From Flavobacteriaceae bacterium (GTDB lineage Bacteria > Bacteroidota > Bacteroidia > Flavobacteriales > Flavobacteriaceae), in assembly GCA_029248885.1 (NCBI GenBank), contig JAQWIL010000038.1, forward strand, positions 1 through 50,717: a stretch of 50,717 nucleotides of DNA, written 5' to 3'. The position numbers and the translations under genes were made by a program. The notes below the pieces were generated by a model that was not told the DNA's origin, did no database searches, and worked only from the letters and a program-made list of their open reading frames with translations. Shown one piece after another: positions 2-45,665 of this stretch; within the stretch, counting starts at the first letter, position 1, and every line of letters begins with the position of its first letter.

Positions 2-838
2 TCTGAGCTGGTTCCCGTTAGTATTTTTTTGGCACTCTTATATTTTGTGCCGGATACGCCGAGATCTTTGGTGTCTCACAACAAAGAAGCTGAGGCATTA
101 GAAATTCTAAAGAAAGTAAATAACGAGAGCGAAGCACAAAGCATTTTGAGCGATATTAAGAACACGCTTATTGTTAAAACCAATAGCGCACTCACATACG
201 GATGGGGTCTTATTATCATCGGTATTTTGCTTTCTGTGTTTCAGCAGTTTGTGGGGATTAATGTTGTGTTGTATTATGCGCCAGAGATTTTCAAAACCTT
301 AGACTTGGGTACAGATGCTGCCTTACTACAGACTATTATTGTTGGAATTGTAAACTTCTTATTTACCATAGTTGCCGTTAAAACGGTAGACAATTATGGG
401 CGAAAGCCGTTGATGTTTATTGGTGCGGTAGGCATGGCTGTTGCCATGATTGCCTTAGGGTTTGCATTCTATGCTGAGATAGGCGGATACGCTGCGCTTA
501 TTTGTATGATGGTTTATGTAGCCGCATTTGCGTTGAGTTGGGGACCGGTTACTTGGGTACTACTTGCTGAAATTTTCCCGAACGATATCCGCAACAAGGC
601 TATGCCTATTGCAGTAGCAGCACAATGGCTTTCCAATTGGCTGGTATCTGCAACCTTTCCAGTAATGAATGAAAATTCATATCTGGTTGACACATTCAAT
701 AATGGCTTTGCTTATTGGATTTACGGAATCATGTCTGTATTGGCTGCTGTATTTGTTCTCAAATATGTACCTGAAACAAAGGGCAAGACATTAGAAGAAA
801 TGAACAATCTTTGGAAAAAAAATAAGCCTAAGACGTAG
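2..838 (+). CDS. MFS sugar/H+ symporter, XylE-like (5' truncated)
   Basis: This is the C-terminal part of a major facilitator superfamily sugar porter. The frame is open to the left window edge, so the start lies outside; the TTG at 29 is an internal codon, not a start. Family signatures visible are the loop-6 PDTPRSLV (family PESPR.L), the loop-8/9 DNYGRKPL (family D..GRR), the SWGPVTWVLLAEIFP stretch in TM10, and the C-terminal YVPETKGKTLEEM (family PETKG). About seven hydrophobic segments remain, as expected for the second half of a 12-TM protein. The family imports hexoses or xylose with protons across the inner membrane. The wording around TM10 resembles bacterial xylose/H+ symporters, which fits the xylan-type enzymes to the right, but substrate cannot be fixed from motifs. 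It is convergent with the next gene and ends before a two-way terminator. Confidence 0.88.
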   Translation, partial: SELVPVSIFLALLYFVPDTPRSLVSHNKEAEALEILKKVNNESEAQSILSDIKNTLIVKTNSALTYGWGLIIIGILLSVFQQFVGINVVLYYAPEIFKTLDLGTDAALLQTIIVGIVNFLFTIVAVKTVDNYGRKPLMFIGAVGMAVAMIALGFAFYAEIGGYAALICMMVYVAAFALSWGPVTWVLLAEIFPNDIRNKAMPIAVAAQWLSNWLVSATFPVMNENSYLVDTFNNGFAYWIYGIMSVLAAVFVLKYVPETKGKTLEEMNNLWKKNKPKT

Positions 839-862
839 CGCATAGCTACAACTCTTTAAAGT

Positions 863-898
863 AAAACCACCATTTCAATTTGTTGAAATGGTGGTTTT
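863..898. terminator. Bidirectional intrinsic terminator
   Basis: A perfect 16-bp inverted repeat (863-878 against 883-898) with the 4-nt loop TTTG has A-runs on the left and T-runs on the right. It lies between the sugar porter (ends 838) and the convergent beta-helix gene (ends 906), so it can terminate transcription from both sides. Confidence 0.85.
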
Positions 899-905
899 TT
901 ATTGT

Positions 906-3305
906 TTATTTTTTGATAAAGCGTATGGATTTTGTCTCGTCATTATTATTGGAGACGTTTATATAATAGACCCCTGTATCAAGCTTAGACACATTTAGCT
1001 TTAGGCTATTCGTATTTCTTTGTTGTTGAATGGCTAGTTTTCTGCCCAATACGTCATAAACCGCAACACTTTCTTCGTCTGTAACGTTAATAAGCGTTAG
1101 CATGTCTTTGGTTGGATTGGGGTAGGCATAAACAGCAGTTGCTTGCGAAGGATTTTCTGTCATCGAAAGTGGTTGGCTTTGATATTCATACGCTCCAATG
1201 TCAACTGTCGTTTCAGTTTCTCTTATCGAATTAAAATCAATAGCTGGATAATCAGTAGGTAACAATGAAAAATCGTCAACATAATAATCGACTCCAGCTC
1301 CATTAACAACTGATGGACCTTTTACAAATAAAAAGCTACTACTGTCCATTTGATAATGGGTATACGCTGTTGTTAACTGAGTCCATGATTGATCGTTTAT
1401 TTCTATTGGGTCATTTAGTTCAAAAGAGCTCTGAACACCTTCAATTATTTCTCTTAGCATAAGCTGGGAAGTTCCATTGCCAGAATTTTCAGTTAGTTTC
1501 ACCCAAACTGTGAATGTGTAAGTCTTTCCTACTTCCAATTTGTTGTTTAAAATAAATTTAGGGCTATGGAAGTTTTTTGTTCTGTTTGTGGATAGAATGC
1601 TTTGAATACCAGTTTTTGCTTCTATTGAACTCAATTCAATTGTATTGGTTTGACTTGTATCGCCACCATTTGTCCAAACAGTCCATCCATCAAATGAACT
1701 TTCAAAACTCGAAAAATAATACCCAGCACCTGGTCTTGGATTACCATTAATGTCTGTTATCGGTGCATTGTTTTGATCACCAGCATCAATCGCTGGAGAA
1801 GAAGGTAAAAGTGAAAAATCGGTGCCATCCATATAGTTTTCCCAATCTGACATTATACTTGCATCGTCAGATAGTTCGGTTGGATTAACAAATTGCGGGG
1901 AATCTTCTTGGTTATTTGTCGGATTGCTTGCTCCCCAACTAATAGAACCTAAAACAAAAATATTATTACTTACTGTTCGAGTCCCGGTAACGTTCGGTAA
2001 CTCCAATGCTGAATAATTATCAAATCTAGTTTCAACAATATTATTGACAACAGTTACATTTTTGACGTAGTTAGCTTTAATCCCTGCGACTTTTTGGCCT
2101 CCATGCCTGGGATTACCTTCAACATTTTCTGAGATATCTTGTACCAAGTCATGTGCACCATTAAAATAAATCGTGTTGTTTCTAATCAACGCAGAGCTTC
2201 CATTTGATCTGTCAAAATTGATTCCATTTTTACCATTATTGACACAAAGATTGTTTTCAAATAAAAATGTTCCATTATAATTTGGGTCGCTTCTGGTGAC
2301 ATATAATCCTTGACCATCTAAAATCGTTGAATAATCAGCATCTCCATAACCACCACTTGGGGGCTGTCCATTTTCAGGTAAAGATGTCATAAAAAAAGGA
2401 ATTCGATTCCAATTGTTATAAACTGTATTACCACGTAATATCATCTTAGCATCTGTACCATTATCATCCGCACTTGCAATTGTTTCGGCAAAGACAATTG
2501 CACTAGAAGCTGATGAAGTCCACCAAGTTGTGTTATAAACTGTGTTGTTTTCAATTAAGACATGGTCACTGTCATTGAATCTTATCCCAGACCCAGGTGT
2601 ATCGTGTACGATATTATCTCTTATTATAATGTGATGATGTGAGTCGTAACCGCCCCAAATCCCTTTTCCTGAAAAATAACTCAGATTATGTTTTAAAATT
2701 TGTTCTCGATTACCATCGTCATTAGTATCAAGATGATCATTATGATTTTCAGGGTCTTCATGTAATGTGACTTTGTAACGGCGATTCATGATTGCCTTAT
2801 TGTAATCTATAAACGCAGAAGGTCCCACAACTTCAAACCCCTCAACAATAACATAACTGACTCCCACATTAGAGCTGTCTTTTCCAAGTTTTATACCTCC
2901 TTGACCATTAAAAATAATTTTAGGGCGATCATTTTGATAATTTTTTATTGTGATATATCCACTTTCTGCATTTCCTGACTTGTCAATTGTAACTACATGG
3001 GGATTATTTAAGTTAGTTCCACTATTGATTACGAAAGGTCTATTGGCAGAGTCTAGTCTTGAAGTATCTTCTGAAAAATCAACAATTGGTGTACCTGAAT
3101 TTTGATCAGTGTATATACCCTCCATAACATAAACTGTTCCACCAGCAACAACATCCTGTATTCCTCTGTTAATGGTTTGATAAGGGGATTGTTCAGTTCC
3201 ATCGCCGGAGTAATCATCGCCAGTATTAACACTCACATAAATTTTTTGTTGCGCAAATGCACAAACAGAAATAAAGAGTAAAAAACCAATTTTATATTTC
3301 ATCAT
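906..3305 (-). CDS. Secreted right-handed beta-helix protein with inserted CBM-like domain and T9SS tail
   Basis: A 799-aa exported protein. Residues 1-19 are a Sec signal peptide (hydrophobic core, CAFAQ cleavage region). Residues 20-65 match the DUF1565-type start of parallel beta-helix proteins (VSVNTGDDYSGDGTEQSPY). Residues 115-460 contain repeated N-N-x-V/I turns (DNIVHD, ENNTVYN, GNTVYN, NNLCVNN, NNTIYF, NNIVET), the pattern of a right-handed beta-helix found in polysaccharide lyases, epimerases and some glycosidases (GH120 is one alternative). A CBM_4_9-like jelly-roll (about 528-685, FESSFDGW to YYVDDFSL) interrupts the usual anchor pattern. Residues 725-799 are a T9SS type A sorting domain (AYPNPTKDML to SIRFIKK), so the protein is probably surface-bound or released. 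No catalytic residues can be assigned; activity is unknown. It diverges from the SusC operon and ATG occurs twice at the start (MMKY). Confidence 0.82.
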   Translation of the reverse strand: MMKYKIGFLLFISVCAFAQQKIYVSVNTGDDYSGDGTEQSPYQTINRGIQDVVAGGTVYVMEGIYTDQNSGTPIVDFSEDTSRLDSANRPFVINSGTNLNNPHVVTIDKSGNAESGYITIKNYQNDRPKIIFNGQGGIKLGKDSSNVGVSYVIVEGFEVVGPSAFIDYNKAIMNRRYKVTLHEDPENHNDHLDTNDDGNREQILKHNLSYFSGKGIWGGYDSHHHIIIRDNIVHDTPGSGIRFNDSDHVLIENNTVYNTTWWTSSASSAIVFAETIASADDNGTDAKMILRGNTVYNNWNRIPFFMTSLPENGQPPSGGYGDADYSTILDGQGLYVTRSDPNYNGTFLFENNLCVNNGKNGINFDRSNGSSALIRNNTIYFNGAHDLVQDISENVEGNPRHGGQKVAGIKANYVKNVTVVNNIVETRFDNYSALELPNVTGTRTVSNNIFVLGSISWGASNPTNNQEDSPQFVNPTELSDDASIMSDWENYMDGTDFSLLPSSPAIDAGDQNNAPITDINGNPRPGAGYYFSSFESSFDGWTVWTNGGDTSQTNTIELSSIEAKTGIQSILSTNRTKNFHSPKFILNNKLEVGKTYTFTVWVKLTENSGNGTSQLMLREIIEGVQSSFELNDPIEINDQSWTQLTTAYTHYQMDSSSFLFVKGPSVVNGAGVDYYVDDFSLLPTDYPAIDFNSIRETETTVDIGAYEYQSQPLSMTENPSQATAVYAYPNPTKDMLTLINVTDEESVAVYDVLGRKLAIQQQRNTNSLKLNVSKLDTGVYYINVSNNNDETKSIRFIKK

Positions 3306-3464
3306 TAATTTTGAAAATTAAGAATTTAAGACTGTAAAGATTATAACAAGTGATTCAAAATATTAGATTAATGTGTTTATTAAAAAAGATAATAATTTTA
3401 AATTATTGAATTCTTAATTTCTATGTATAATCTCTGTAATTATTGAAGTATAACTTACATTAAA

Positions 3465-3484
3465 TAAGCAATTTGTTTTATTTT
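3465..3484 (+). promoter_or_regulatory. Candidate PUL promoter/operator motif, copy 1
   Basis: TAAGCAATTTGTTTTATTTT lies 44 nt before the SusC start. It matches 18 of 20 bases in the motif 47 nt before the CBM-protein gene (10123-10142). The TTTG could be the -33 element of a Bacteroidota promoter, but the nearest -7-like sequence (TAATTATG at 3498) is 22 nt away rather than about 19. The rest of the divergent intergenic region (3306-3528) is AT-rich with no other clear signal. Confidence 0.35.
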
Positions 3485-3528
3485 TTAAAATCTTCTTTAA
3501 TTATGTTTACTCTATCAAAAGATCACAA

Positions 3529-6500
3529 ATGAAACATTTAATAAATTTCTTTTTGCTCATTCCAGTTATTTTGTTTTCACAGCAGGCTGTTGTTGAAGGC
3601 GTTGTTCTTGACGATATAGGTGATCCACTTCCTGGCGCTACCGTACAAATTCAAGGAGTTGACCAGGTAGGTGCAATTACAAATTTTGATGGAGAGTTTT
3701 CTGTCATTTTAGATTCTCCATATCAATCTATCATTGTTTCTTACATTGGCTTTATTTCTGAAACTATCGAAGTAAATGGTCAAAATAATCTCACGGTAAG
3801 TCTTTCACAAGATGTTTCAGAACTTGAAGAAGTAGTTGTGATTGGATATGGAACAGTATTGAAAAAAGATCTTACAGGTTCTGTCGCATCGGTTGAAGTT
3901 TCTGATGAAATCGCCAAGCAATCGTCAACTGTTGATCAACTATTACAGGGTAGGGCAGCAGGAATTTATGTTACCCAAAACGCAGCAAACCCTGGATCTG
4001 GAATTAGTGTCAGAATTAGAGGTGCTAGTAGTTTGCGTGGTAATAATGAACCATTGTATGTAGTTGATGGCATCATTGTTTCGTCTGCCAGTGAAGATGT
4101 TGTATCCACTGGAGGAGGAAATACTGGTCAAGAGCAACAGAACGGTCTAAACGGAATCAACCCGCGTGACATTGAGGATATTCAAATTTTAAAAGACGCT
4201 TCTGCCACTGCAATCTATGGCTCTAGAGGTGCCAATGGTGTTGTTTTAATTACCACCAAAAAAGGAACCCCAAACCAGGTAAAAACGAATATTTATGTTA
4301 ACACTTCGATGAAAAGCATTTCAAAAAAGTATGATGTGCTTGACGCTTTTGACTATGCTCGCTACAGGAATGAAGCTAGTTTAAGGACAACTGACACGAA
4401 TTATCCTGCCTTTCATATTGATGGCGATCAAATTTTTCAAATTACCAATAACAATGGGGTTGTAAGTATTTCCGACACGCCTGTAACACCAATTAACTGG
4501 CAAGATGAATTATTAAGTCCATCTCCAAGTATAAGTGCTGGTATTTCTATCTCAGGTGGCAGTGATAACGGGAACTACTATTTGTCTGGCGGCATAAATG
4601 ACAACAAAGGGCTCGTAGAAAATTCAAGTCATAAAAGTGGAGACATAAGACTTAACCTAAATCAGACTCTGAGTCCTAAAGTAAAGATTAATGCGCGGCT
4701 GAGTGGATTTTTTAGTAAGACCGATTTTGCAGAAGGAGGAGATTTAATTGGAAGTTCGAACCAAAGTTTTATTCGAAATTTACTTTCATTCAGACCTATT
4801 CTCCCTGATGGAATAGTTGAAGCCGATGATACCGATGATTTAGGTATTTCTAGCCCATATTCCTTTATCGATGACTTTGAGGATATTTCTAGTGAAAATC
4901 GATTCTTTGGCTCGATTACCTCCACTTTTGAGTTGGGAGTGAAAGGTCTTAGTTATCAAATGAGAGCAGGTGGTAACATTCGTACGAAAGAAAGAAGACG
5001 TTTTTATGGTTTAACAACTTATGTCGGTAAAAATGCGAATGGAATGTTACAATTATCAAAATTAGAAGCGACATCTTTCCAGTTTACAAACACATTAAGA
5101 TTTAATCGAGCATACAGAGGCAATAACAGAATAAATGCAGTTTTAGGAGTGTCATATGATCAGAAAAACAATCAGAATATGACATATGTTGTACAAGATT
5201 TTGTAACGCTTGAAAAAACAACCGAGCAGCCCTTTTTTGGTCAGGTTATTTCTAGTCCATTAGCTAACTTAGATTCCGAAGTAAAACTATTTTCAGTTTT
5301 AGGACGTGTAAATTATGTATTTAATAATAAGTATATCCTTACAGCAAGTTTCAGAAGAGATGGGATTTCAAAATTTTTAGAGGATTCTAGATATGGAATT
5401 TATCCATCTTCAGCTTTTGCATGGAACATGCATCGTGAAGATTTTATAAAAGACATTCCGTTAATTGATGAGTTGAAAGTACGTGTAGGGTGGGGGCAAA
5501 TTGGAAACCATGGTATTGGAGCTTATGGTACATTATCTAACTACGGTATAAACACCAGTACTTTATATGGAACACCTACCAATGGAACTAGTGTGCCCTT
5601 AATTCTCAATAATATTGCAAACCCAACGCTAACCTGGGAGACTACTGAGCAACAGAACCTTGGTGTCGATTTTTCTCTTGCGAATGGCTTTATCACGGGA
5701 ACAATAGATGTCTATGACAAGCTCACTAAGGATTTACTTATCAATTCAAATGTTGCACCATCTACAGGGTTTAACAATCTATTGATAAACAAAGGTGAGC
5801 TATCCAACAAAGGACTTGAAATTGCAGTCCAAATAAGTCCTGAAGAAAAGGAAGATTTTGGATTCAGCTTTGGTGGAAATATTGCATTTAATAAAACTAG
5901 GATTGAAGGTTTATCTTCTCAACCTCTATCATCACTTTATCTAAATGATTCATATGCTGAAGAAAAAAGATTTTATTTAGGAAACGCGATTAGCCGTGGA
6001 AATTATTTTAAATATCCTGCCAACATTTTTGTTGAGGGTGAGGAAGCGTCACTATTTTATGGTTTCAAAACTTACGGGATTTACCAAGAAGGTGATGTTT
6101 TACCAAATGGAAATCTTGCTGTATATGACCCTAATTATAACTTGTTGTATGACCATGATAATGATCCATCAACAGAGGCTATACGATACCCCAACGACGA
6201 TATTTCAGCAGGTGACGTTAGAATCGTAGACCTGAATAAGGATGGTAAAATTGATATAAATGACCGAACGATTATTGGAAATCCTAATCCTGATTTCACA
6301 TTTGGGTTGAATCTCTCTCTAAATTACAAGTCATTTTCGCTATCTGCCCTAGTTAATGGAGTTTATGGAAATGATATTATTAATGGAAATTCTCTTCAAA
6401 TGGGTAATGCAGAAGGATTATACAGAAATATTACTCCTGAGGCATATCACAATGCGTGGCGACAGGAGAAAGTGGGACAAACTTCCTCAACAGCAATAAC

Positions 6501-14016: not shown

Positions 14017-16629
14017 GTGCACAAAAAGCTATCATATATTTTTTGTTTTTTTTTGGCAATCTTTTTTGCTCAAAGCCAACAAGCACCCAATGTTGTATTT
14101 ATTTCTGTTGATGACCTCAAACCAACAATTAGAAGCTTTGGTGACGAAATTGCGATCACACCCAATTTAGATCACCTGTCACGTTCTTCAACAATTTTTT
14201 TGAACAATCACACTCAACAAGCTATTTGTAGTCCATCAAGAATCAGTTTGCTTACAGGGATGCGCCCAGATTATACGCAAGTGTATGATTTGAAAACCAA
14301 AATGCGAGACAAAAGACCAGATATCTTGACTTTGCCACAGCACTTTAAAAATAATGGTTATACAACAGCCGGTATCGGTAAAATATTTGACCCGAGAGGA
14401 GTGGATAATCTACTAGATGAGCCGTCGTGGAGCATCCCTTTTCTAAGAGCATATAAAATTCCTTATCCTAAGGCGTATGGTCAACCAAAATTAGGGTTTT
14501 ACCAAAACCCAGAAATCAAAGCAAAGATCGATAAGATGATTGCTGAAAATAATCTTAAAAGAGGTAAGGCCGCCAATTTTTTCAATAATAATTACAAACC
14601 TCCAATTTCGAACAGTAATGCTCCTGATGAAGCGTACACAGATGGAGCAATTGCTCAAGAGGCAATTCGTTTGATAGATCGCTTGTCTTCTAATGAAAAT
14701 CCTTTTTTTCTTGCTGTTGGATTCAAAAGACCTCACTTGCCATTTTCAGCTCCTAAAAAATATTTTGATTTATACAACCCCAACAAAATTCCAATAGAAC
14801 CATTTAGACAACGTGCAAAAAATGTTGGAGACCTTGCGTATCACAATTCTGGAGAGCTGCAAAGTTATACTGAGGATGGTCGAGAATACATTTTGGATTC
14901 AAATCAACAACTCCAGCTCGATAAAGATTTTGAAAGAGAATTGATTCATGGTTATTATGCTTGCGTTACTTTTATTGATTTTCAAATCGGAAAAATCATT
15001 AATAAACTAAAACAAAGTGGATTGATGGACAACACAATTATCGTAATCTGGGGAGATCATGGTTATCATTTTGGGGATCATCGTCTTTGGAACAAACACT
15101 CTAATTTTGAGCAGGCTACTCGCTCACCACTTATCATTTATAACCCTAAAACAAAAACTGCTCAGAAAATTATAACTCCCACTGAGTTTGTTGACGTTTT
15201 TCCAACATTAATCGACCTAGCGCAATTACAAACTCAACCTCATTTGAATGGCAATTCTCTTGCACCTTTGATGCTTGGACAACAACAAAAGGTAAAGGAT
15301 TTTGCAGTAAGTCAATATCCTAGGCGGAATACAATGGGATATAGTTTTCGAACTGCAAATCATCGATATACGCTATGGATAGATAAAGAAAAAATAGGTT
15401 CAAAAATAAGTGATGATGACATAAAACAAGAGGAACTTTTTGATTACAGTAAAGATCCATTAGAAACAGAAAATCATATTGGTAAAAACGGGTATAAAAA
15501 CATTTATAATGACCTGAAGCAACAGGCACTTAGATTTTTATCTCCAACCCCAAAAACAGAGATGAATTCTAATAGCACAAACCCATCGGCTGGCATTAAA
15601 GACTTGATGTTTGAAGCTGGCTATGACAGCAATAAAGTATATGTGGGCGCCACCTTAAATCACTCACAACTCAATACAAAAGTATCTGATCTGTTCCTCA
15701 AAGAATTCACGTATTCGACTCCAGAGAACTGCGCAAAACAAGCAAGAATACATCCGAAGCCAGGCGTATGGGACTGGAACCTTATTGATGATTACTTATA
15801 TTTTGCAGATAAAAACAATATAACCCTTCGCATTCACGGACCGGTCAGCCCACAAGCTTCGCATTGGGCAAAGGCAGATAATCGGACAAAAGAAGAATTA
15901 GAAAATAATATGGTAGCGTTCTTTACCGCACTTTGTAAACGTATGAATAATGAGCCCTCAGTAAAATGGATGGATGTCGTCAACGAAACAATAACGCCAC
16001 AAGGAGATTGGTTTGAAGAAAAGCCAGGAGTCACACAATGGGAAAACCCTTGGGAACAAATCGGTAGAGATGAAAATGACGTTCCACTATACATAACCAA
16101 GGCATTCGAAATATCCAATAGGTATGCACCAAATGTCAGTCAGGTGTTTAATCAGCATGGAGGAATGGAGCCAATAATGTGGGAAAAGGTTAAGGAGACC
16201 ATCATTTATCTAAAACAGCAAGGATATCGTGTAGATGGTCTTGGGTGGCAAGCACATTTGAGAAGCGATGTTCCTTTGGCTTTAAACAAAAAACAGCTCG
16301 ATTACTTTGCTTCTCTGATTGATTGGGCGCATCAAAACGATTTAGATTTTCATGTTACCGAAATTGACTATAAAATTTGGGATAGCAATAATGACTTTAA
16401 AGCTCTTAATGATCAAGCAGATGCGTATGCAAACATTCTTAATGTTTTATTGTCAAAGCGAGACAATGGCGTAGTCACTTTTAATACTTGGGGAATGGTT
16501 GATGGAAAAAAAGGGAAACATCACGATAAACATCGCTTTATTTTTGATAAAAACAACAATCCTAAGCCAGCATATTTTTCATTGCGAAACACAATTTTGA
16601 ACCCCAACACTGAATTAAAAATTAAATAA
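14017..16629 (+). CDS. Bifunctional sulfatase-GH10 xylanase fusion
   Basis: An 870-aa protein starting at GTG, with a signal peptide of about 20 residues (FFAQSQ). Residues 22-505 are a family S1 formylglycine sulfatase resembling iduronate-2-sulfatase (S1_7-like): metal ligands D32/D33, FGly site C71 in CSPSR, and WGDHGYHFGDH (D347, H348). A Ser/Thr/Asn/Pro-rich linker (about 508-526) leads to a GH10 domain (about 527-862). This has WMDVVNE with acid/base E657 and FHVTEID with nucleophile E782, plus FNTWGMVD near the end. The usual HTLVWH motif is replaced by LRIHGPVSPQ, so this is a divergent GH10. There is no T9SS tail, which suggests the periplasm. The two activities could remove sulfate and cut the same xylan chain. 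Gaps to neighbours are 30 and 3 nt, as in an operon. Confidence 0.88.
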   Translation: MHKKLSYIFCFFLAIFFAQSQQAPNVVFISVDDLKPTIRSFGDEIAITPNLDHLSRSSTIFLNNHTQQAICSPSRISLLTGMRPDYTQVYDLKTKMRDKRPDILTLPQHFKNNGYTTAGIGKIFDPRGVDNLLDEPSWSIPFLRAYKIPYPKAYGQPKLGFYQNPEIKAKIDKMIAENNLKRGKAANFFNNNYKPPISNSNAPDEAYTDGAIAQEAIRLIDRLSSNENPFFLAVGFKRPHLPFSAPKKYFDLYNPNKIPIEPFRQRAKNVGDLAYHNSGELQSYTEDGREYILDSNQQLQLDKDFERELIHGYYACVTFIDFQIGKIINKLKQSGLMDNTIIVIWGDHGYHFGDHRLWNKHSNFEQATRSPLIIYNPKTKTAQKIITPTEFVDVFPTLIDLAQLQTQPHLNGNSLAPLMLGQQQKVKDFAVSQYPRRNTMGYSFRTANHRYTLWIDKEKIGSKISDDDIKQEELFDYSKDPLETENHIGKNGYKNIYNDLKQQALRFLSPTPKTEMNSNSTNPSAGIKDLMFEAGYDSNKVYVGATLNHSQLNTKVSDLFLKEFTYSTPENCAKQARIHPKPGVWDWNLIDDYLYFADKNNITLRIHGPVSPQASHWAKADNRTKEELENNMVAFFTALCKRMNNEPSVKWMDVVNETITPQGDWFEEKPGVTQWENPWEQIGRDENDVPLYITKAFEISNRYAPNVSQVFNQHGGMEPIMWEKVKETIIYLKQQGYRVDGLGWQAHLRSDVPLALNKKQLDYFASLIDWAHQNDLDFHVTEIDYKIWDSNNDFKALNDQADAYANILNVLLSKRDNGVVTFNTWGMVDGKKGKHHDKHRFIFDKNNNPKPAYFSLRNTILNPNTELKIK

Positions 16630-38223: not shown

Positions 38224-39390
38224 ATGTCCGACCAACGGTATAGCCAACGTGGGGTTTCCGCAACCAAAGATGATGTTCACAAGGCCATTGCCTCCATTGA
38301 CAAAGGGTTGTTTCCCAAAGCGTTCTGCAAAATCGTTCCTGACCATTTGACCAATGACCCCAATTCTTGTATCGTCATGCATGCTGATGGAGCTGGAACC
38401 AAGTCTTCGCTGGCCTATATGTATTGGAAAGAAACAGGGGATTTATCAGTTTGGAAAGGGATTGCGCAAGATGCTCTTGTGATGAACCTTGACGATTTGC
38501 TATGTGTGGGTGCGACGGACAATATCATGTTGTCATCGACGATTGGACGAAACAAAAACAACATCCCCGGTGAGATCATTGCTGCCATTATTCAGGGAAC
38601 AGAAGAGTTGATAGCAGATTTGGCCAAACACGACGTACATATTTACAGCACAGGCGGGGAGACCGCTGACGTTGGGGATTTGGTCCGTACGATTATTGTG
38701 GATTCGACGGTTACGGCCCGTATAAACCGAGAAGATGTGATTGACAATGCTCGCATTCAGGCTGGAGATGTGATTGTTGGCTTGGCGTCTTCTGGACAAG
38801 CTACCTATGAAAGCGAATACAACGGAGGGATGGGTAGTAATGGACTCACCTCTGCGCGACATGATGTGTTTTCTAAAACGCTAGCCCAACAATACCCAGA
38901 AAGTTTTGACCCCAGCGTTCCAGAGGAATTGGTGTATGCAGGACAAAAATCATTGACTGATGCGACAGATACGCCGCTAGATGCAGGGAAATTGGTTCTG
39001 TCCCCAACACGAACCTATGCACCCATTGTTAAAGCAATTTTAAATCAAGTTGATCGGAAGCAGATCCACGGTATGGTGCATTGCAGTGGGGGAGCCCAAA
39101 CCAAAATTTTACATTTTATCGATGAGTTCCATGTTATCAAGGACAATTTGTTTGACACGCCTCCTTTGTTTAATCTGATTCAAGAGCAGTCTGGAACGGA
39201 CTGGAAAGAAATGTACCAGGTCTTTAATATGGGCCACCGTATGGAGCTGTATATACCCGAAGCAATTGCCAATACACTGATTTCAATTTCTCAATCTTTT
39301 GGGGTTGATGCCCAAGTTGTCGGTCGGGTAGAGGCCTCCACAAAAAAACAACTCACGATTTCTTCTCCGCACGGGGAGTTTGGGTATTAG
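38224..39390 (+). CDS. purM: Phosphoribosylformylglycinamidine cyclo-ligase (AIR synthase)
   Basis: A 388-aa PurM of the Bacteroidota type, catalysing ATP-dependent closure of FGAM to AIR in purine synthesis. Landmarks are RYSQRGVSATKDDV, VMHADGAGTKSSLAY, DDLLCVGA, YSTGGETADVGD, VGLASSGQATYESEYNGGMG, SPTRTYAPIVKAIL, HGMVHCSGGAQTKI and FNMGHRMELYIPE. It has its own promoter overlapping glnN. Its last 46 bases, encoding KQLTISSPHGEFGY, occur again at 40720-40765 beyond the Fic gene, there reading EFTY-stop and followed by the terminator. The current C-terminus probably came with the inserted cassette. Confidence 0.93.
   Translation: MSDQRYSQRGVSATKDDVHKAIASIDKGLFPKAFCKIVPDHLTNDPNSCIVMHADGAGTKSSLAYMYWKETGDLSVWKGIAQDALVMNLDDLLCVGATDNIMLSSTIGRNKNNIPGEIIAAIIQGTEELIADLAKHDVHIYSTGGETADVGDLVRTIIVDSTVTARINREDVIDNARIQAGDVIVGLASSGQATYESEYNGGMGSNGLTSARHDVFSKTLAQQYPESFDPSVPEELVYAGQKSLTDATDTPLDAGKLVLSPTRTYAPIVKAILNQVDRKQIHGMVHCSGGAQTKILHFIDEFHVIKDNLFDTPPLFNLIQEQSGTDWKEMYQVFNMGHRMELYIPEAIANTLISISQSFGVDAQVVGRVEASTKKQLTISSPHGEFGY
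39344..39389 (+). repeat. Direct repeat, purM 3' end, copy 1
   Basis: A 46-bp segment forming the end of purM, 44/46 identical to 40720-40765. The first 38 bp are identical, then GG replaces AC, then GTATTA is shared. It forms the left border of the putative Fic cassette. Confidence 0.85.
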
Positions 39391-40719
39391 CTAATATTGC
39401 GTTGGGGTAAATCCCTTTTCTTCTAACTGTTTTATGACTCCTCTGAGCAAGAGGTTTTGAATGAAATTGATATGGTATTTTCGAGAATTTTCACCCTCAC
39501 TGACAAGCATTTTCTTTTCTTTTAAAGACCTGATATATCTAGAAACTGAAGTGATGTGTTTGGATTTCATTACCGTTTTGATAGTTGCATTTTGAACAAT
39601 TTGATTTTCAATTGTAACTCTCAGAATTTTGTATTCAATAGCATCGATATATTTCATGGATTTGGAGTAAGCTAAAGCAGGGAGTAGAATGTGAGTTTTT
39701 AAATAATCGTAATTGGAAAGTCGATCAATTTTTTCGATTTCTGTCTTTAGACCACTCAACACGTAAGTACACCAACTCATAAGATTTTCCTCACTGCCCT
39801 GATCTGCCACAGATAATTGTCGATAATACTCCTCACGGTTGTTACAAAAAATAGCTGTCGGGTTTAGAATTCCGCCAACATGCACGTTGAATCCAAATTT
39901 GACCAAAAGCGCATAAGTAAAGACCCTTCCCAACCTTCCGTTTCCATTGCCAAAGGGATGTATCCACATTAAACGGTGATGTGCGATACACATTTTTAGC
40001 AAGTCATATCTTGGTGGGTTGGGTTGATTCAAAAAGTCGATCAATTCTTGCATATACCCCTCGATTTGCTGGTAATTTTCTGGGGGGATATGCTTTGCTC
40101 CTTTGATGTTTACCGGATGGTTGCGGTAATCTCCAGGGTTGTGATCTCCCTCACCAATAGGGGGTGGAGTGAGGTTTTTGACCGTTATTTTGTGTAAATT
40201 ACTGATGGTAATCCTGTTGATTTTAATGTTTTTGGACTCTTTTTCAATATGATGGAGGCAATTCTCAATATTTAGAATTTCTTGGATTTGCTCATCCACT
40301 GGCTTTCTGCTTTCAAGTTGTGTTTCGATAAACTCTGAAATGGTGGTGTTGTTACCTTCTATTCTTGCTGAACCGATACTTTCAAGCATCTGAAAGACAT
40401 TTTTAAGTTGAAAAAACACAGTGGGGTGTGTAGTGCCACTAATTTGCTTGTTTCTCAAGTGGTCTAGTTCTATAATTAATCCTGTCAAAGGATCATTGAA
40501 GGTAGGTTCGATCAATCGAATATCACGATGTGTAAATGGACTCAATTTGAAGTGTAATTATTTTGAAATAAATATAATAAGAATTAGCAATATGATGCTT
40601 TTTAATCGACAAAATTTATTATAAATATCTTGATATAAGCATATTATATTTTTTTTAATCGTTTATTTTCTATAAATATAGATTTAATTATTTAGCAATA
40701 CTCCAATTCTTTAATTAGC
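39390..40719. mobile_element. Putative Fic-gene cassette inserted at the purM 3' end
   Basis: About 1.33 kb between two direct copies of the purM end. It contains only the Fic gene on the minus strand and about 175 bp of AT-rich sequence (40546-40719) with TTAGCAA words near the right border. No integrase or transposase is visible. The pattern, a gene end restored on one side and a displaced remnant on the other, is what site-specific integration at a gene 3' end leaves. Confidence 0.45.
39391..40545 (-). CDS. Fic family protein (putative AMP-transferase, class II)
   Basis: A 384-aa Fic protein. The start is TTG at 40545 (MSPFTHRDIRLIEP); a stop codon lies five codons upstream and the next Met is residue 53, so TTG is the best choice. 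The N-terminal inhibitory motif (S/T)xxxE(G/N) is present as S59-ARI-E63-G64, followed by the Fic_N region. The Fic core reads IHPFGNGNGRLGR (H196 to R207), where family members usually have Asp or Glu before GNGR; here N200 occupies that Mg2+-binding place. A winged-helix-like C-terminal part (about 300-384, KSKHITSVSRYIRSLKEKKM) could bind DNA. Such proteins usually AMPylate targets, but the N200 change makes activity uncertain. It ends base-to-base with purM and has no visible antitoxin partner. Confidence 0.88.
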   Translation of the reverse strand: MSPFTHRDIRLIEPTFNDPLTGLIIELDHLRNKQISGTTHPTVFFQLKNVFQMLESIGSARIEGNNTTISEFIETQLESRKPVDEQIQEILNIENCLHHIEKESKNIKINRITISNLHKITVKNLTPPPIGEGDHNPGDYRNHPVNIKGAKHIPPENYQQIEGYMQELIDFLNQPNPPRYDLLKMCIAHHRLMWIHPFGNGNGRLGRVFTYALLVKFGFNVHVGGILNPTAIFCNNREEYYRQLSVADQGSEENLMSWCTYVLSGLKTEIEKIDRLSNYDYLKTHILLPALAYSKSMKYIDAIEYKILRVTIENQIVQNATIKTVMKSKHITSVSRYIRSLKEKKMLVSEGENSRKYHINFIQNLLLRGVIKQLEEKGFTPTQY

Positions 40720-40765
40720 AAAAACAACTCACGATTTCTTCTCCGCACGGGGAGTTTACGTATTA
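40720..40765 (+). repeat. Direct repeat, purM 3' end, copy 2 (displaced remnant)
   Basis: This segment would encode KQLTISSPHGEFTY and a TAA stop in the purM frame and is followed 1 nt later by a strong terminator stem. It is a purM tail without a gene body, separated from purM by the Fic gene. Confidence 0.85.
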
Positions 40766-40766
40766 A

Positions 40767-40790
40767 AAAACCCCTCGGGTGAGGGGTTTT
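40767..40790. terminator. Bidirectional intrinsic terminator (ancestral purM terminator)
   Basis: AAAACCCCTC (40767-40776) pairs with GAGGGGTTTT (40781-40790) around GGGT. It directly follows the displaced purM remnant on the plus strand and also lies just after the SusD-like gene on the minus strand. Confidence 0.85.
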
Positions 40791-40819: not shown

Positions 40820-42247
40820 TTATTGGGTGTCCCAAAAAATTGACGTTTGCTGAGTGTCGTTACCCCCGTTTGCAGCTTTTACATTCTCACCGTTAATTGT
40901 CTGCTCGGATTGAGGATATGTATATCTTTTAGGAACAGGAAGGTCAAGTGTTCCAGAGTTTTTTAGAGCTGGTGCGTCATACAATCTGTAAACGGTCCAC
41001 CCTTCAAATCCCCTGTTATACATTGCTATCCAAAATTGCTTTGCAATTTTTTCTTTATCCGAACCACTAGCGGTTGCGAAAGCAACATCTGAGGATGCGA
41101 GGTATGCGTCTTTATCTGTATCAGTAACGCCCCACTCGCTCATGCTTGCAGAAATACCATTTTCATAATGGTTTGAGGCAGTATCTCCAACATCAAATCC
41201 TCTTCGAGCAGCATCAGCTAGAATAAAACTCATTTCTGAATAGTCGATTAATACTCCCCTAAAGTCGGGTGAATAAAGAGTTTGCGAAATATGAGAGTTA
41301 TCATTAAATGGAGTTGAGGTTCCATAGGGTCCGCCTTGATAGTGTAGCACATTTAAGGAATCTGCTATTTTTGAAGACGGATCAAAAAACTTATCAGCAC
41401 GTGGATCATTAAGGTCATTTAATGCATCAACAAACGTATCAGCAGGGATAAAGTCCTGCCTGCCAGATTGTACCAAGTCCTCCCAAAGAGGGTTGGTGTT
41501 TGGGGGTGCTCCCTCAAATTGAATATAAGCATTATCAGCATTGGAAGAAATTCCATTTGCGTAGTGATCTTCAATCAAGCTTTTTGCAAGGTCTGAATTT
41601 TTATCAACTAGTCTTGCCCCAAGCTTTACCAAGAGTGAGTTTGCAAATTTTGTCCATGCTGAAATAGATCCTGAAAATATTAAATCATCAGAAACATATC
41701 CCGTACCTGAACTACTCAGCCCCGATAGGGCAGTTTCAGCGCGCGATATCAAGTCAGAATAAATTGTTGCGGCGTCATCATACTTTGGTGCAAGAACCGC
41801 GGTATCTCCCTCTGCGCTGAGTGCTTCACTATATGGAACATCTCCAAAGGCATCTACCAACATTTGAAAGGCATAAACAGATATTAATTCTATTTGAGCA
41901 ATCTTAACAGCATCATCAGTTTGATTGGCTGCATTTTTAAGATCACCTAATACATCACGATAAAACTCTGAAAACATATAGTCAGGAATCTCTCTGTTTT
42001 GCATTTCGTAATTGGATTCGTCTGTATACTGTGTTTGTGTCCAGTACTGTGCGTAAAGTCTAAAGTTGTTTACATTGACATTAGTTGACTCAATAAAATC
42101 TGTCAAGCTATTTGTAGCTGAAACAAAAAGCTGACCATCAGAAACCTCCGCAGGAGCATTAGAATCTTTGTTCAAGTCCTCGTAAACCTTATCTGAAGAA
42201 CAACTTGTCAAGACAACTGTAATAATTAATAAGAAGTATTTTTTCAT
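40820..42247 (-). CDS. SusD-like outer membrane lipoprotein (SusD-like_2 type)
   Basis: A 475-aa lipoprotein with lipobox VVLTSC (Cys at residue 16). The order YAQYWTQTQYTDESNYE, IELISVYAFQMLVDAFGDVPYSEAL, TKFANSLLVKLGARL and the C-terminal QFWIAMYNRGFEGWTVYRLY is that of the second SusD subfamily (PF12771), often paired with TonB receptors of the kind upstream here. It binds substrate at the cell surface. It follows SusC by 25 nt and ends before a strong terminator. No degradative enzyme is nearby, so substrate is unknown; peptides or small glycans are both possible. Confidence 0.92.
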   Translation of the reverse strand: MKKYFLLIITVVLTSCSSDKVYEDLNKDSNAPAEVSDGQLFVSATNSLTDFIESTNVNVNNFRLYAQYWTQTQYTDESNYEMQNREIPDYMFSEFYRDVLGDLKNAANQTDDAVKIAQIELISVYAFQMLVDAFGDVPYSEALSAEGDTAVLAPKYDDAATIYSDLISRAETALSGLSSSGTGYVSDDLIFSGSISAWTKFANSLLVKLGARLVDKNSDLAKSLIEDHYANGISSNADNAYIQFEGAPPNTNPLWEDLVQSGRQDFIPADTFVDALNDLNDPRADKFFDPSSKIADSLNVLHYQGGPYGTSTPFNDNSHISQTLYSPDFRGVLIDYSEMSFILADAARRGFDVGDTASNHYENGISASMSEWGVTDTDKDAYLASSDVAFATASGSDKEKIAKQFWIAMYNRGFEGWTVYRLYDAPALKNSGTLDLPVPKRYTYPQSEQTINGENVKAANGGNDTQQTSIFWDTQ

Positions 42248-42272
42248 TTTTTTATTTTAATATTATTAATGA

Positions 42273-45200
42273 TTAGAAGCTCAACTTAAGACTCAAGCCA
42301 TAAGTTTTAACTGCTGGATAAGCTCCAGTTTGATAACCTTGAGTATTTCCAGCAGAAATTCCTGCCTCTGGATCCGTGTATGGAGCGTTTTTATGTATAA
42401 TCCAGAGATTTCTTCCTACAAAAGCAATTGATGCATCGGTCAATAGTAACTTTTCTATTATTCCTGAAGTAAATTGATATCCAAATCTTAATTCACGTAG
42501 TTTAACAAATGAAGCATCGTGCACATGCATTTCATGAGGAGCTCCAATTGAAGTCCATCCCTCTGGATTTGCATAAAAATCATATCTACTCATCACTTCT
42601 GTGTTTTGAGTTCCTGCTACATTGGCTATGCCATCGTCGTTGATTTTCGCATCATCGGGAAGAATAACTCCATCTAAACGTTTTCCACCGCCCTCAGGAA
42701 TCGTAAGTCTTATGTCATTGCCTAAGTGATTTAATCCTATAGAACGATCATAAGCTCCTGTTCCAAATCCGTACCAAGTGTCAAGAGAAAAGAAATCACC
42801 ACCTTGCTGAATATCAATTAAGAAACTCAAGTCAAAATTTTTATAACTTAACGTATTTCTGATACTCCCAGTCCAGTCAGGGTTAATATCCCCAATTACA
42901 TTATCAGAGTTTGAAGTTCTCATATAATGTGCATAATTGTAACCACTACCATCAGATTCGCTATTCCGAACAGTTAACACTTTATTTCCGTTGGCATCTC
43001 TTACATGGGCATGCCCACGGATGACACCAAATGGTTCCCCAACTTGACCGCCAATCTGAATGCCACCCTGCGGTGAAGTTTGATTGAGGTACTGTATGGC
43101 ATTTCCTGTCGCATCATTTCCTAAACTTAATATTTCAGATTGATAAGTATTGTAATTTAAAACAAAGCTCCATTTAAAATCATTCACGATTACAGGAGTC
43201 ACACGGATCATGGCTTCAATACCTTTATTTTCAATACTCCCTGCATTTGTTACAATTCCGCTAAACCCAGTAGATGGCGAAATATCTAGTGAAGTGAGAA
43301 GGTGGTTTGTTGTTTTATTATAAATAGAAAAATCAAATCCTAGTCTATTCTCAAATAATGAAGCCTCTAAACCAAACTCATTTTCAGTAGTTGTTTCTGC
43401 TTTCAAGTTTTGGTTTGGAAGTATACTTGGGTTAGACGCAGATGCAGCACCATTTCTTGCGGGGTTAATGGTGTATGCTCTAAATACATTGTATGGGTCT
43501 GTATCATTACCTACAACAGCATAATTTGCTCTTAACTTTGCGAAAGTGATTGCTTCGCTATTGATCAAGTTAGACAAAATAACAGATCCAGAAGCCGAAT
43601 AGTAGCCGTACGTATTGTTGTCTGCAGGTAAGGCAGAAGAACGATCCCTTCTGTAAGTACCCTCAACAAAATAAGTATCATCAAACCCAAAGCTTACGGA
43701 CGTATATAAACCATCTACTTTCTTCTGCGCATCATATTGCGCCACATCAGCGGCAGTTAGGGGGTTGACAGAATTAGAAAGAGAAAATATATCTGGAAAA
43801 TTCAATCCGCCATTTGTTTGGGCAGTTGCATGATCCCAGTTCTGAACTCTTAAGCTGTAACCCAGAATAGCCTTTAAGTCAACCTCGTCGCTTAAATCTT
43901 TAGAATAGTCTAGAATCAGATCATAATTGTATTCAGATCGTATTCTGTTTTGTAACTGATATCCTGGCTGATCGTCGAATAAATTTGCGCCTTTACTCCC
44001 TGTGCCTACTGCTACATTTGCTCTTTGCTCTCGAACTTCTGTGACATCATCATAGGTTACACGACCCAAAATATTTAATTCTTCGTTTATCTCATAATTC
44101 AGACTTATATTACCAAAATACCTACTACGAGAGTCGGTTGTGTAGTTGTTATAACGGGACCAATAAGGGTTATCAAAGTATAATGGTTGATGGTTTGGTG
44201 AAGCTGATGCGTCATCCGTATTGGTTCCAATCATATTCCACGAGTAATTTTTGCCTGTTTCATCAAAAACTCTTTTCTGCTCATTTATACTGGCACCAAC
44301 AGCCCACCATTGTCTAAAACCTTGCATGGGATTAAGACCGTCATATCCAGTACCAAACCTACCTGTCGTTTGCGTATTTACGTATGTAACTGACGCATCA
44401 GCGTTGAGATTTCCAAAATCTCGACTTGTTCGAACTGAAATTGTGTTTTTTTCAAGGTTTGAATTGGGAAGAATACCATCAGAGTTGACATTTGTATAGC
44501 TTAGCCTGAAAGAACCATTATCTCCGGAATCGGAAAATGAAATAGAATTTTGTACAGAAACATCGCTTTCAAAAAAGTCATTAGGTGTATCTTTTGGCGC
44601 AATAGCTGGAGCGGTTTTTTGATACAATTCAGTCCATTCGGGGACCATGTTGTACCAATGATGAATCTCTTGTCCAACTAATTTAGGTCCATAAGAGCCA
44701 TCATCACCAGTGTAAAAGCTAGAATTGTTTCCCCATTGACCATAATAGGATCCTGTCCATTGTGCACCCGTCTCTATGGGTGAAGGTCCAATGTAAGCTC
44801 TTCGATACTGACCGTAACCATAGCCGTACTGGTCTTGATACACTGGGAGAGTCTCTTCGTCAACATATCCAAATGTTGCTTGTGAAGAAAATGATATTCC
44901 AACCCCCTTTTTTTCTTTCCCTTTTTTCGTTGTAACTAGGATAACTCCATTGGCTGCGCGCGAACCATATAATGCAGATGCAGCTGATCCTTTTAATACG
45001 GATACGGATTCAATGTCATCTGGGTTGATATCCATTGCAGCATTACCAAAGTCAACCCCTCCTCGACCAGTCACAGTACTTCGACTGTTCCCAGTTTCAT
45101 TGTCAATAGGTGTGCCATCTACAACAAATAGAGCTTGATTGGATCCTGAAAACGACGAATAGCCTCTAATGACGACATTAGCAGAACCACCCATAGAGTT

Positions 45201-45665
45201 GAATGACTGGACATCTAGACCTGCAACTTCTCCTTGTAAGGATTCAATTGGATTTACAGATCTTACATCATCAAAAGATTCACCACCAACAGTTTGAACA
45301 GCATAACCAAGCGATTTTTTATCTCTTGATATTCCTAATGCAGTGATCACAACTTCTTCTAACTGTCCAGCTGGATTTAAAGTAGCATCTATTGTTCCTG
45401 AGTTAATTATAAGTGTTTGCGACTCATACCCCACATAACTAAAGATTAGGGTTTGTCCTGTGCTAGCTGAAATTTGATAGTTTCCGTCAAAATCAGTGGT
45501 GGTACCAGCATTGGTTTCTTCCACCACAACGGTTGCCCCTGGTAGCGGCATTCCATTTTCATCGCTTACCGTTCCTGTGACCAGCCCTTGTGACCACCCA
45601 AATAGGGGAGTCAACAGTGCAATCCCCAGCAACCATACGATGCCATATTGAATTGATTGTTTCAT
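42273..45665 (-). CDS. SusC/RagA-family TonB-dependent outer membrane receptor (second system)
   Basis: A 1130-aa receptor with signal peptide (about 1-26, PLFGWSQ). The regulatory-like domain (28-100) has GMPLPGATVVVEE and DFDGNYQI. The plug begins LEEVVITALGISRDKKSLGYA and contains VVIRGYSSFSGSNQALFVVD and SAASALYGSRAANGVILVTT. The rest is a long barrel ending YGLSLKLSF. The ALGI-RDKKSLGYA form distinguishes it from the first SusC (VVVIGYGT), so the two systems belong to different subfamilies. It is the first gene of a two-gene operon with SusD and has a repeat-rich upstream region. Confidence 0.95.
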   Translation of the reverse strand: MKQSIQYGIVWLLGIALLTPLFGWSQGLVTGTVSDENGMPLPGATVVVEETNAGTTTDFDGNYQISASTGQTLIFSYVGYESQTLIINSGTIDATLNPAGQLEEVVITALGISRDKKSLGYAVQTVGGESFDDVRSVNPIESLQGEVAGLDVQSFNSMGGSANVVIRGYSSFSGSNQALFVVDGTPIDNETGNSRSTVTGRGGVDFGNAAMDINPDDIESVSVLKGSAASALYGSRAANGVILVTTKKGKEKKGVGISFSSQATFGYVDEETLPVYQDQYGYGYGQYRRAYIGPSPIETGAQWTGSYYGQWGNNSSFYTGDDGSYGPKLVGQEIHHWYNMVPEWTELYQKTAPAIAPKDTPNDFFESDVSVQNSISFSDSGDNGSFRLSYTNVNSDGILPNSNLEKNTISVRTSRDFGNLNADASVTYVNTQTTGRFGTGYDGLNPMQGFRQWWAVGASINEQKRVFDETGKNYSWNMIGTNTDDASASPNHQPLYFDNPYWSRYNNYTTDSRSRYFGNISLNYEINEELNILGRVTYDDVTEVREQRANVAVGTGSKGANLFDDQPGYQLQNRIRSEYNYDLILDYSKDLSDEVDLKAILGYSLRVQNWDHATAQTNGGLNFPDIFSLSNSVNPLTAADVAQYDAQKKVDGLYTSVSFGFDDTYFVEGTYRRDRSSALPADNNTYGYYSASGSVILSNLINSEAITFAKLRANYAVVGNDTDPYNVFRAYTINPARNGAASASNPSILPNQNLKAETTTENEFGLEASLFENRLGFDFSIYNKTTNHLLTSLDISPSTGFSGIVTNAGSIENKGIEAMIRVTPVIVNDFKWSFVLNYNTYQSEILSLGNDATGNAIQYLNQTSPQGGIQIGGQVGEPFGVIRGHAHVRDANGNKVLTVRNSESDGSGYNYAHYMRTSNSDNVIGDINPDWTGSIRNTLSYKNFDLSFLIDIQQGGDFFSLDTWYGFGTGAYDRSIGLNHLGNDIRLTIPEGGGKRLDGVILPDDAKINDDGIANVAGTQNTEVMSRYDFYANPEGWTSIGAPHEMHVHDASFVKLRELRFGYQFTSGIIEKLLLTDASIAFVGRNLWIIHKNAPYTDPEAGISAGNTQGYQTGAYPAVKTYGLSLKLSF

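Follow-up and report, generated by a model that had tools for sequence, protein, structure and literature searches.

A one-gene Fic unit between two copies of the purM 3' end in a Flavobacteriaceae genome

How does a single Fic gene come to stand between two copies of the end of a housekeeping gene? This question is raised by contig JAQWIL010000038.1 of a Flavobacteriaceae bacterium (assembly GCA_029248885.1), where purM is followed by a convergent Fic gene and then by a second copy of its own last 46 bp. The window, that is, the whole stretch of DNA that was analysed, comprises 50,717 nucleotides (nt). The reading favoured here, with moderate confidence, is that a one-gene Fic unit with its presumed promoter was inserted at the purM 3' end, duplicating 46 bp of the target. 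The Fic gene itself is likely to be foreign to the lineage. The host assembly is a draft (38 contigs, 1.51 Mb in total, completeness 77.77%), to which all statements on uniqueness refer, and statements on open reading frames (ORFs) cover those of 50 amino acids (aa) or more. Where genomes and loci have to be told apart, G000 denotes the genome itself, G003–G012 denote congener genomes, L plus a number a DNA stretch or locus, and C a contig.

The purM end, its duplicate and the unit between them

The features of the junction are the following.

38224–39390, plus strand: purM, the host gene, 388 aa, frame intact (ORF; Pfam AIRS/AIRS_C; TIGR00878)
39344–39389, plus strand: repeat copy 1, the purM 3' end, in frame, with the stop TAG ending at 39390 (repeat search)
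39390–40719, no strand: inserted unit, 1330 bp, ends GCTAAT...ATTAGC (position between the repeats; not found in relatives)
39391–40545, minus strand: Fic gene, 384 aa, TTG start, motifs HPFGNGNGR and SARIEGN (ORF, Pfam, PADLOC, structure model)
40546–40719, minus strand: Fic upstream region, 174 bp, G+C 0.167, presumed promoter (composition)
40720–40765, plus strand: repeat copy 2, a relic purM tail, with ACG where copy 1 has the codon GGG (repeat search)
40767–40790, no strand: terminator-like hairpin (folding; similar hairpin directly after purM in G005 and G007)

The direct repeat formed by the two purM ends spans 46 nt, of which 44 are identical, with a spacing of 1376. Its 28-nt core, with up to three mismatches allowed, has two sites only in the window and no match in any of 100 shuffles, and 101 bases around the purM end match just the two repeat sites across the draft assembly. 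Read in the purM frame, copy 1 gives KKQLTISSPHGEFGY and a stop (TAG), and copy 2 gives KQLTISSPHGEFTY and a stop (TAA), another stop standing immediately before copy 2. Copy 1 is the live end of the 388-aa purM, and copy 2 is cut off from any purM by the stop that precedes it. The host protein matches both AIR-synthase domains of Pfam. The TIGR00878 purM model matches it at E 9.7e-33, yet under the curated cut-off; the purM name was kept, and seven full-length congener purM copies are 83–95% identical to that of the window.

The only gene-sized ORF between the repeats is the Fic gene, whose frame is intact and whose stop codon abuts that of purM. No integrase or transposase was found among the ORFs of the insert, nor any other same-strand ORF upstream of Fic within the unit. 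Relatives were examined in a sample of 13 genus genomes, including the host's own, of which 9 had a purM match; 8 besides the host's own show the purM end, and 4.1 to 10 kb downstream of it were read. Within this distance, a single purM tail is present in 8/8 of these congeners. A search of the 12 other genus genomes, drafts that are 58–86% complete, gave no window-type Fic. Judged by these genomes, the Fic unit is a lineage-specific insertion. The observation behind the original prediction is confirmed: the last 46 bp of purM recur with 44/46 identity, and the second copy reads the purM C-terminus and a stop. Its interpretation is supported in part, namely for a cassette-like insertion of about 1.33 kb with only Fic and no integrase, at a site that is empty in relatives.

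Two other parts of that prediction stand only in half. A strong terminator had been placed after the second copy, and a hairpin does fold there (10 pairs, 4-nt loop, −15.4 kcal/mol, z −2.59, equalled by 5 of 200 shuffles), but a simple terminator scan of the window did not list it. A hairpin directly after the purM stop is also seen in G004, G005 and G007 (by eye; folded in G005 and G007), and a degenerate one in G008 (by eye), while none separates purM from prfA in G003, G009, G010 and G012. G005 and the window have the same stem, so copy 2 has retained the ancestral purM–terminator junction. The ancestral purM had been thought to end at the second copy; the TAA and the hairpin, retained there as in relatives, agree with this, but the codon before the last Tyr does not, being GGG in copy 1 and in the closest relative, G007. 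As to which copy is the older, GGG thus favours copy 1, and TAA and the hairpin favour copy 2.

Further relatives were drawn from the family: purM was matched in 116 other genomes, and for 60 of them up to 10 kb downstream were fetched (4 of the 60 stretches were shorter, at a contig or stretch end, one of them ending at purM). The purM tail, taken as its last 90 nt, is not repeated in any of the 59 readable family genomes, the best score being 16 against 40 in the window. With a repeated tail in 0/8 congeners and 0/59 family genomes, these samples do not support the integration hotspot at the purM end that had been proposed. A literature search for a purM attachment site gave nothing on point.

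The Fic protein and its relatives in other bacteria

The Fic protein matches Pfam PF02661 (E 2.8e-16). In a phmmer search against solved structures, 7xux was aligned nearly end to end (E 6.7e-102), and the predicted model (mean predicted local distance difference test score, pLDDT, 82.3) has the same nearest solved relative, with a template modelling (TM) score of 0.82–0.83 and 40–41% identity. The likeness to SoFic (PDB 3eqx, 3zcn) is seen in a match to the PADLOC SoFic model (E 4.1e-48) and a TM score of 0.54–0.55 to 3eqx. However, the identity to 3eqx is 18–19%, the criterion of the NCBIfam SoFic equivalog NF046030 was failed by far (49.9 bits against a curated cut-off of 550), an N replaces D/E in the Fic motif, and no separate small antitoxin gene was found among the ORFs.

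The canonical motif of Fic AMP-transferases is HPFx(D/E)GNGRxxR. The window protein reads HPFGNGNGRLGR, with N200 at the canonical D/E position; this N is invariant in 31 aligned sequences, as are most positions from H196 to R207. Class II Fic proteins have an N-terminal inhibitory helix with the motif (S/T)xxxE(G/N) ahead of the Fic core. This motif is present in the window protein as S59-x3-E63-G64, invariant in the same alignment, and a helix is predicted at residues 41–62, just before and into it. The protein is predicted from these motifs to be an AMPylating, possibly anti-phage toxin that is restrained by its own helix. Such a self-inhibiting helix would mean that no separate antitoxin gene is needed for travel. 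Directly downstream of the window Fic lies the purM end, where Sofic, according to a part of PMC12249575 an abortive-infection toxin, has its small antitoxin gene. Viral contigs, scanned for a relative of the Fic protein and for the purM-tail core, gave no match.

The window-type Fic is sparse: at E<=1e-80, it was detected in 2/396 other genomes of the family, 2/394 of the order and 9/394 of the phylum, in draws that overlap. The three nearest homologues found in public species genomes are 68–69% identical to the window protein and come from records titled Bacteroidales, Saprospiraceae and Bacteroidetes. The three share a mutual DNA identity of 91–95%, which is limited to 1256–1323 bp, that is, to Fic plus 107–171 bp upstream, and which ends within 14 bp of the stop codon. 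Their settings differ: one lies beside an IS110-type transposase, one before hsdR, and one, with two other genes, between two integrase 3'-end copies about 4 kb apart. Near-identical Fic genes are thus shared among other bacteria in a unit comparable in extent to that of the window (174 bp upstream, end at the stop). Since the shared DNA is restricted to the Fic unit in three different settings, related Fic genes seem to be mobile as single-gene units.

The flanks of 23 other Fic loci (10 + 13) were checked for repeats. In L016 (1762–5927), a Fic homologue and two other genes lie between 136-bp duplicated integrase 3' ends, a repeat that appears at the 4 kb range, and in L017 (826–2535) a homologue (54%) lies between 188-bp duplicated 5' ends of a DUF2779 gene. 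L184 has a 54-bp repeat, REP-like by eye, L175 a low-complexity repeat and L181 a 23-nt repeat; the remaining 18 loci have no flanking repeat longer than 17 nt.

Routes by which the unit may have been joined to purM

The favoured reading would need no dedicated integrase: imported DNA may have been joined by template switching or by illegitimate recombination. In this account, a strand being repaired or replicated would leave the chromosome at the purM stop, switch to the imported Fic DNA, copy Fic and return 46 bp upstream of its point of departure, so that these 46 bp were duplicated. The outcome would be a whole purM and a relic tail left before the old terminator. A return upstream gives a duplication and purM survives, whereas a return downstream gives a deletion. 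DprA is present in the genome, which is consistent with DNA uptake and proves nothing.

This kind of event is already known. Long target duplication with restriction-modification genes of Helicobacter pylori was reportedly described by Nobusato et al. in 2000. Insertion of such genes with a long target duplication in this species is also treated in parts of PMC3031569, PMC1643837 and PMC4978471. The window unit resembles these cases in that an extra, defence-like gene stands between long direct target repeats (44/46), the target is single and without an insert in 8/8 readable congeners, and the insert contains no transposase or integrase. It differs in its cargo, a single Fic gene instead of a restriction-modification system, and in its host, which carries SusC/SusD-like and type IX secretion system (T9SS)-type genes; moreover, the empty purM sites come from other species of the genus, and not from the same species. 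The window adds a type of cargo, a set of relatives in which the target is single, and a second unit of like structure within one genome, at a SufA-like gene (see below). Among the papers found on long target duplication, the bacterial cases mostly concern restriction-modification genes and H. pylori. The single-gene Fic case, with its single target copy in eight relatives and together with the similar unit, suggests that small genomes acquire defence-like genes in this way more widely. It also provides two sites, purM and sufA, where the joining step can be tested, and it points to a toxin-like gene that seemingly travels without an antitoxin partner.

Several observations weigh against the insertion of an imported unit by such a switch. 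The G+C of Fic (0.374) equals that of the window (0.379), so its composition does not mark it as foreign. Four bases common to both purM copies depart from those of the nearest relative, and the duplicate would therefore have arisen within the own lineage or come from a very close strain. The similarity of the Fic upstream region to those of the three homologues is not above that of shuffles (92, 395 and 194 of 500 as good), and only a selected 45-nt end does better against one homologue (2/1000 shuffles; 56/1000 against another). The purM tail matches the 3' flank of one homologue over 9 nt, a length reached by 116/2000 random 50-mers, and those of the other two over only 5 nt. The 6-bp inverted match at the unit ends, which 0.04% of random end pairs reach, may point to a defined end. 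The structure rests on a draft assembly, congeners too have gene-sized units bounded by repeats, in part within recombinase-linked arrays, and the sufA unit duplicates a 5' end, not a 3' end as at purM. Finally, a trans-acting integrase would produce an identical arrangement.

Two readings of the junctions were tried and not kept. Microhomology was looked for and not established. The 6-bp inverted match, together with a 12-bp palindrome at the first junction, was considered as a pair of transposon ends and set aside because such palindromes are common in the window (24 of them) and because GCTAAT is a motif inside the Fic upstream region, found also at −43 upstream of Fic in the three nearest homologues.

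Integrase-less remnants and cis-mobilisable elements are flanked by attL and attR at a gene 3' end. An integrase encoded elsewhere may likewise recognise the purM 3' end, the Fic unit being a passenger that lacks an integrase of its own, either cis-mobilisable or an integron-like cassette, with attL and attR as its borders; we regard this as possible, though rather unlikely. The same gene 3' end with a stop at both copies, the single convergent gene, the 46-bp repeat and the lack of an integrase inside would all fit such an origin. Furthermore, G003 and G007 carry genes between copies of a tyrosine-recombinase 3' end, and the own genome has three PF00589 recombinases. However, the repeat-free purM ends of congeners and family genomes reveal no second event at purM, and no related full element was seen. 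A model of the repeats in the recombinase arrays does not match the window at E<=10, and so not the insert boundary either. The own array-type recombinase is broken (residues 1–195, three stops), and two of the three PF00589 genes are Xer-like by eye, the third passing a XerA/integron-integrase model. A dedicated route of this sort can be imagined, by which the lineage would acquire genes singly or a few at once and in which a tyrosine recombinase that uses its own gene end as the attachment site gathers small cassettes in arrays, and off-target or sister activity would drop cassettes behind housekeeping genes such as purM, the gene end being rebuilt each time; an autoinhibited Fic, needing no partner, would be a suited passenger. 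This broader proposal is a long shot.

A Campbell-type single crossover with circular DNA carrying Fic beside a 46-bp purM tail, for instance after natural transformation, would yield exactly this structure, and DprA is present. The repeat is long enough for it, since 46 bp exceeds the limit for RecA recombination in E. coli, roughly 30 bp as cited in a passage of PMC2884548. The difficulty is that the donor must already have had Fic beside a purM tail almost identical to that of the own strain; such a crossover is improbable. An artefact of assembly or strain mixture, in which the repeat linked purM to a Fic gene of another locus or strain, could be favoured by a draft in 38 contigs, in which a 46-bp repeat can confuse short-k assembly. 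But the two repeat copies differ, both frames are intact, and the Fic cluster (4 member sequences, flanks unseen) lies on 15 contigs, the longest of 291,444 bp, so that the gene is not confined to the window contig; an artefact is very improbable. Insertion of the Fic unit with duplication of its target remains our preferred account, at the confidence stated above.

Other repeat-bounded units, arrays and the purM–prfA interval

A repeat scan covered about 45% of the own assembly in stretches whose neighbours overlap slightly. In its first part (20 pieces, 378 kb, window included), repeat pairs were found in the window, L037, L039, L041, L045 and L050, the L039 pair lying within one gene and the L050 pair being a repeat protein; the second part (20 pieces, 362 kb, 50 kb of it N) gave no pairs. 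A recount, with spacing limited to 600–5000, a higher score and L050 left out, gave 9 pairs in 4/39 pieces (649,615 bases readable). Of these, the window and the sufA unit account for one each, L041 for three, and L045 for four, the last among paralogous genes for secreted proteins. The purM stretches used as a control had 0 pairs in 118 kb of congener and 0 in 600 kb of family DNA; these are conserved regions and not matched. Random congener stretches, taken as the matched control, contained 4 pairs in 3/20 (G007) and 3 pairs in 2/20 (G003); the own genome is thus not exceptional in having such repeats.

The similar unit lies in L037 (G000:C4, 15940–17279), where a SufA-like gene has its 5' end duplicated over 101 bp (97/101) on either side of one T9SS-sorted gene. 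In a comparison of the own locus with five congeners, the two sufA copies were seen by eye to bear two promoter types, one like that of G003 and G008 and the other like that of G005, G006 and G007. In congeners, the cargo has no more than weak partial matches. This unit looks like an import by recombination, in which a foreign allele may have been joined beside the resident one.

Units behind tRNA genes were also observed, with repeat copies of 46–56 bp that include the terminator-like part. In L041 (G000:C6, 7668–9043), 46 bp of sequence behind a tRNA-Leu (ARAGORN) are present twice and enclose a GH10 gene, and in L209 (G007:C11, 12800–13993) an ArsR-type regulator and an SdpI-like gene lie between copies of post-tRNA sequence (tRNA by eye). 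Elsewhere in L041 (797–1700), a racemase-like gene, seemingly interrupted, stands between two perfect 44-bp repeats, which together with their surroundings look attC-like by eye.

Integron-like arrays, in which genes are separated by copies of the last ~60 nt of a tyrosine-recombinase gene, occur in congeners: L216 (G007:C18, 17767–19459), L222 and L269 (G003:C4), L270 (G008:C16) and L271 (G004:C17). The own genome has a match to the array repeat in L066 (G000:C6), at 15278 and, weakly, at 15629. In G007, the recombinase has 345 aa (PF00589, E 2.4e-9), and its last 61 nt recur 607 bp on, enclosing one convergent gene; in G003, eight repeat copies extend over some 10 kb of one contig. A single ORF, opposite to the repeat strand in each case, fills 9/17 of the array intervals read (for one of the nine, the second repeat is weak), and two to seven ORFs fill the other 8/17. 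When 25 distinct repeat sequences were aligned, recombinase gene ends included, most ended alike at the stop, with edges AAC...GTT-like by eye. Matches to the array recombinase were found in 10/13 genus genomes, many of them to the C-terminal 20–60 residues only. The literature on such arrays, in a search that was not thorough, gave nothing plainly on point.

Outside the Fic unit, the neighbouring genes fill the interval between purM and prfA.

40820–45665, minus strand: SusD-like and SusC-like genes, neighbours outside the unit, named by eye (cargo of the purM–prfA interval)

The purM–prfA distance in the family, seen in 50/60 genomes, ranges from 29 bp to 8.9 kb, and this wide range indicates an interval open to gene gain. 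Other cargo at the same place, which the original prediction had named as support for a hotspot, is found in so far as SusC/SusD-like pairs vary between purM and prfA, but none of this cargo in the congener intervals comes with a purM repeat. In minimal mobile elements of Neisseria, alternative genes lie between two conserved genes and are swapped by transformation. The purM–prfA interval is like these in that its content differs among the window, L024, L025 and L026 (differing SusC/SusD-like genes, a remnant, nothing at all), whereas the Fic unit adds a target duplication, which is not made by simple exchange between conserved flanks. Among congeners, G007 has SusC/SusD-like genes 31–33% identical, G005 a SusC remnant and G004 partial SusC matches. 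As a side observation, the purM–prfA interval is an exchange site for uptake genes.

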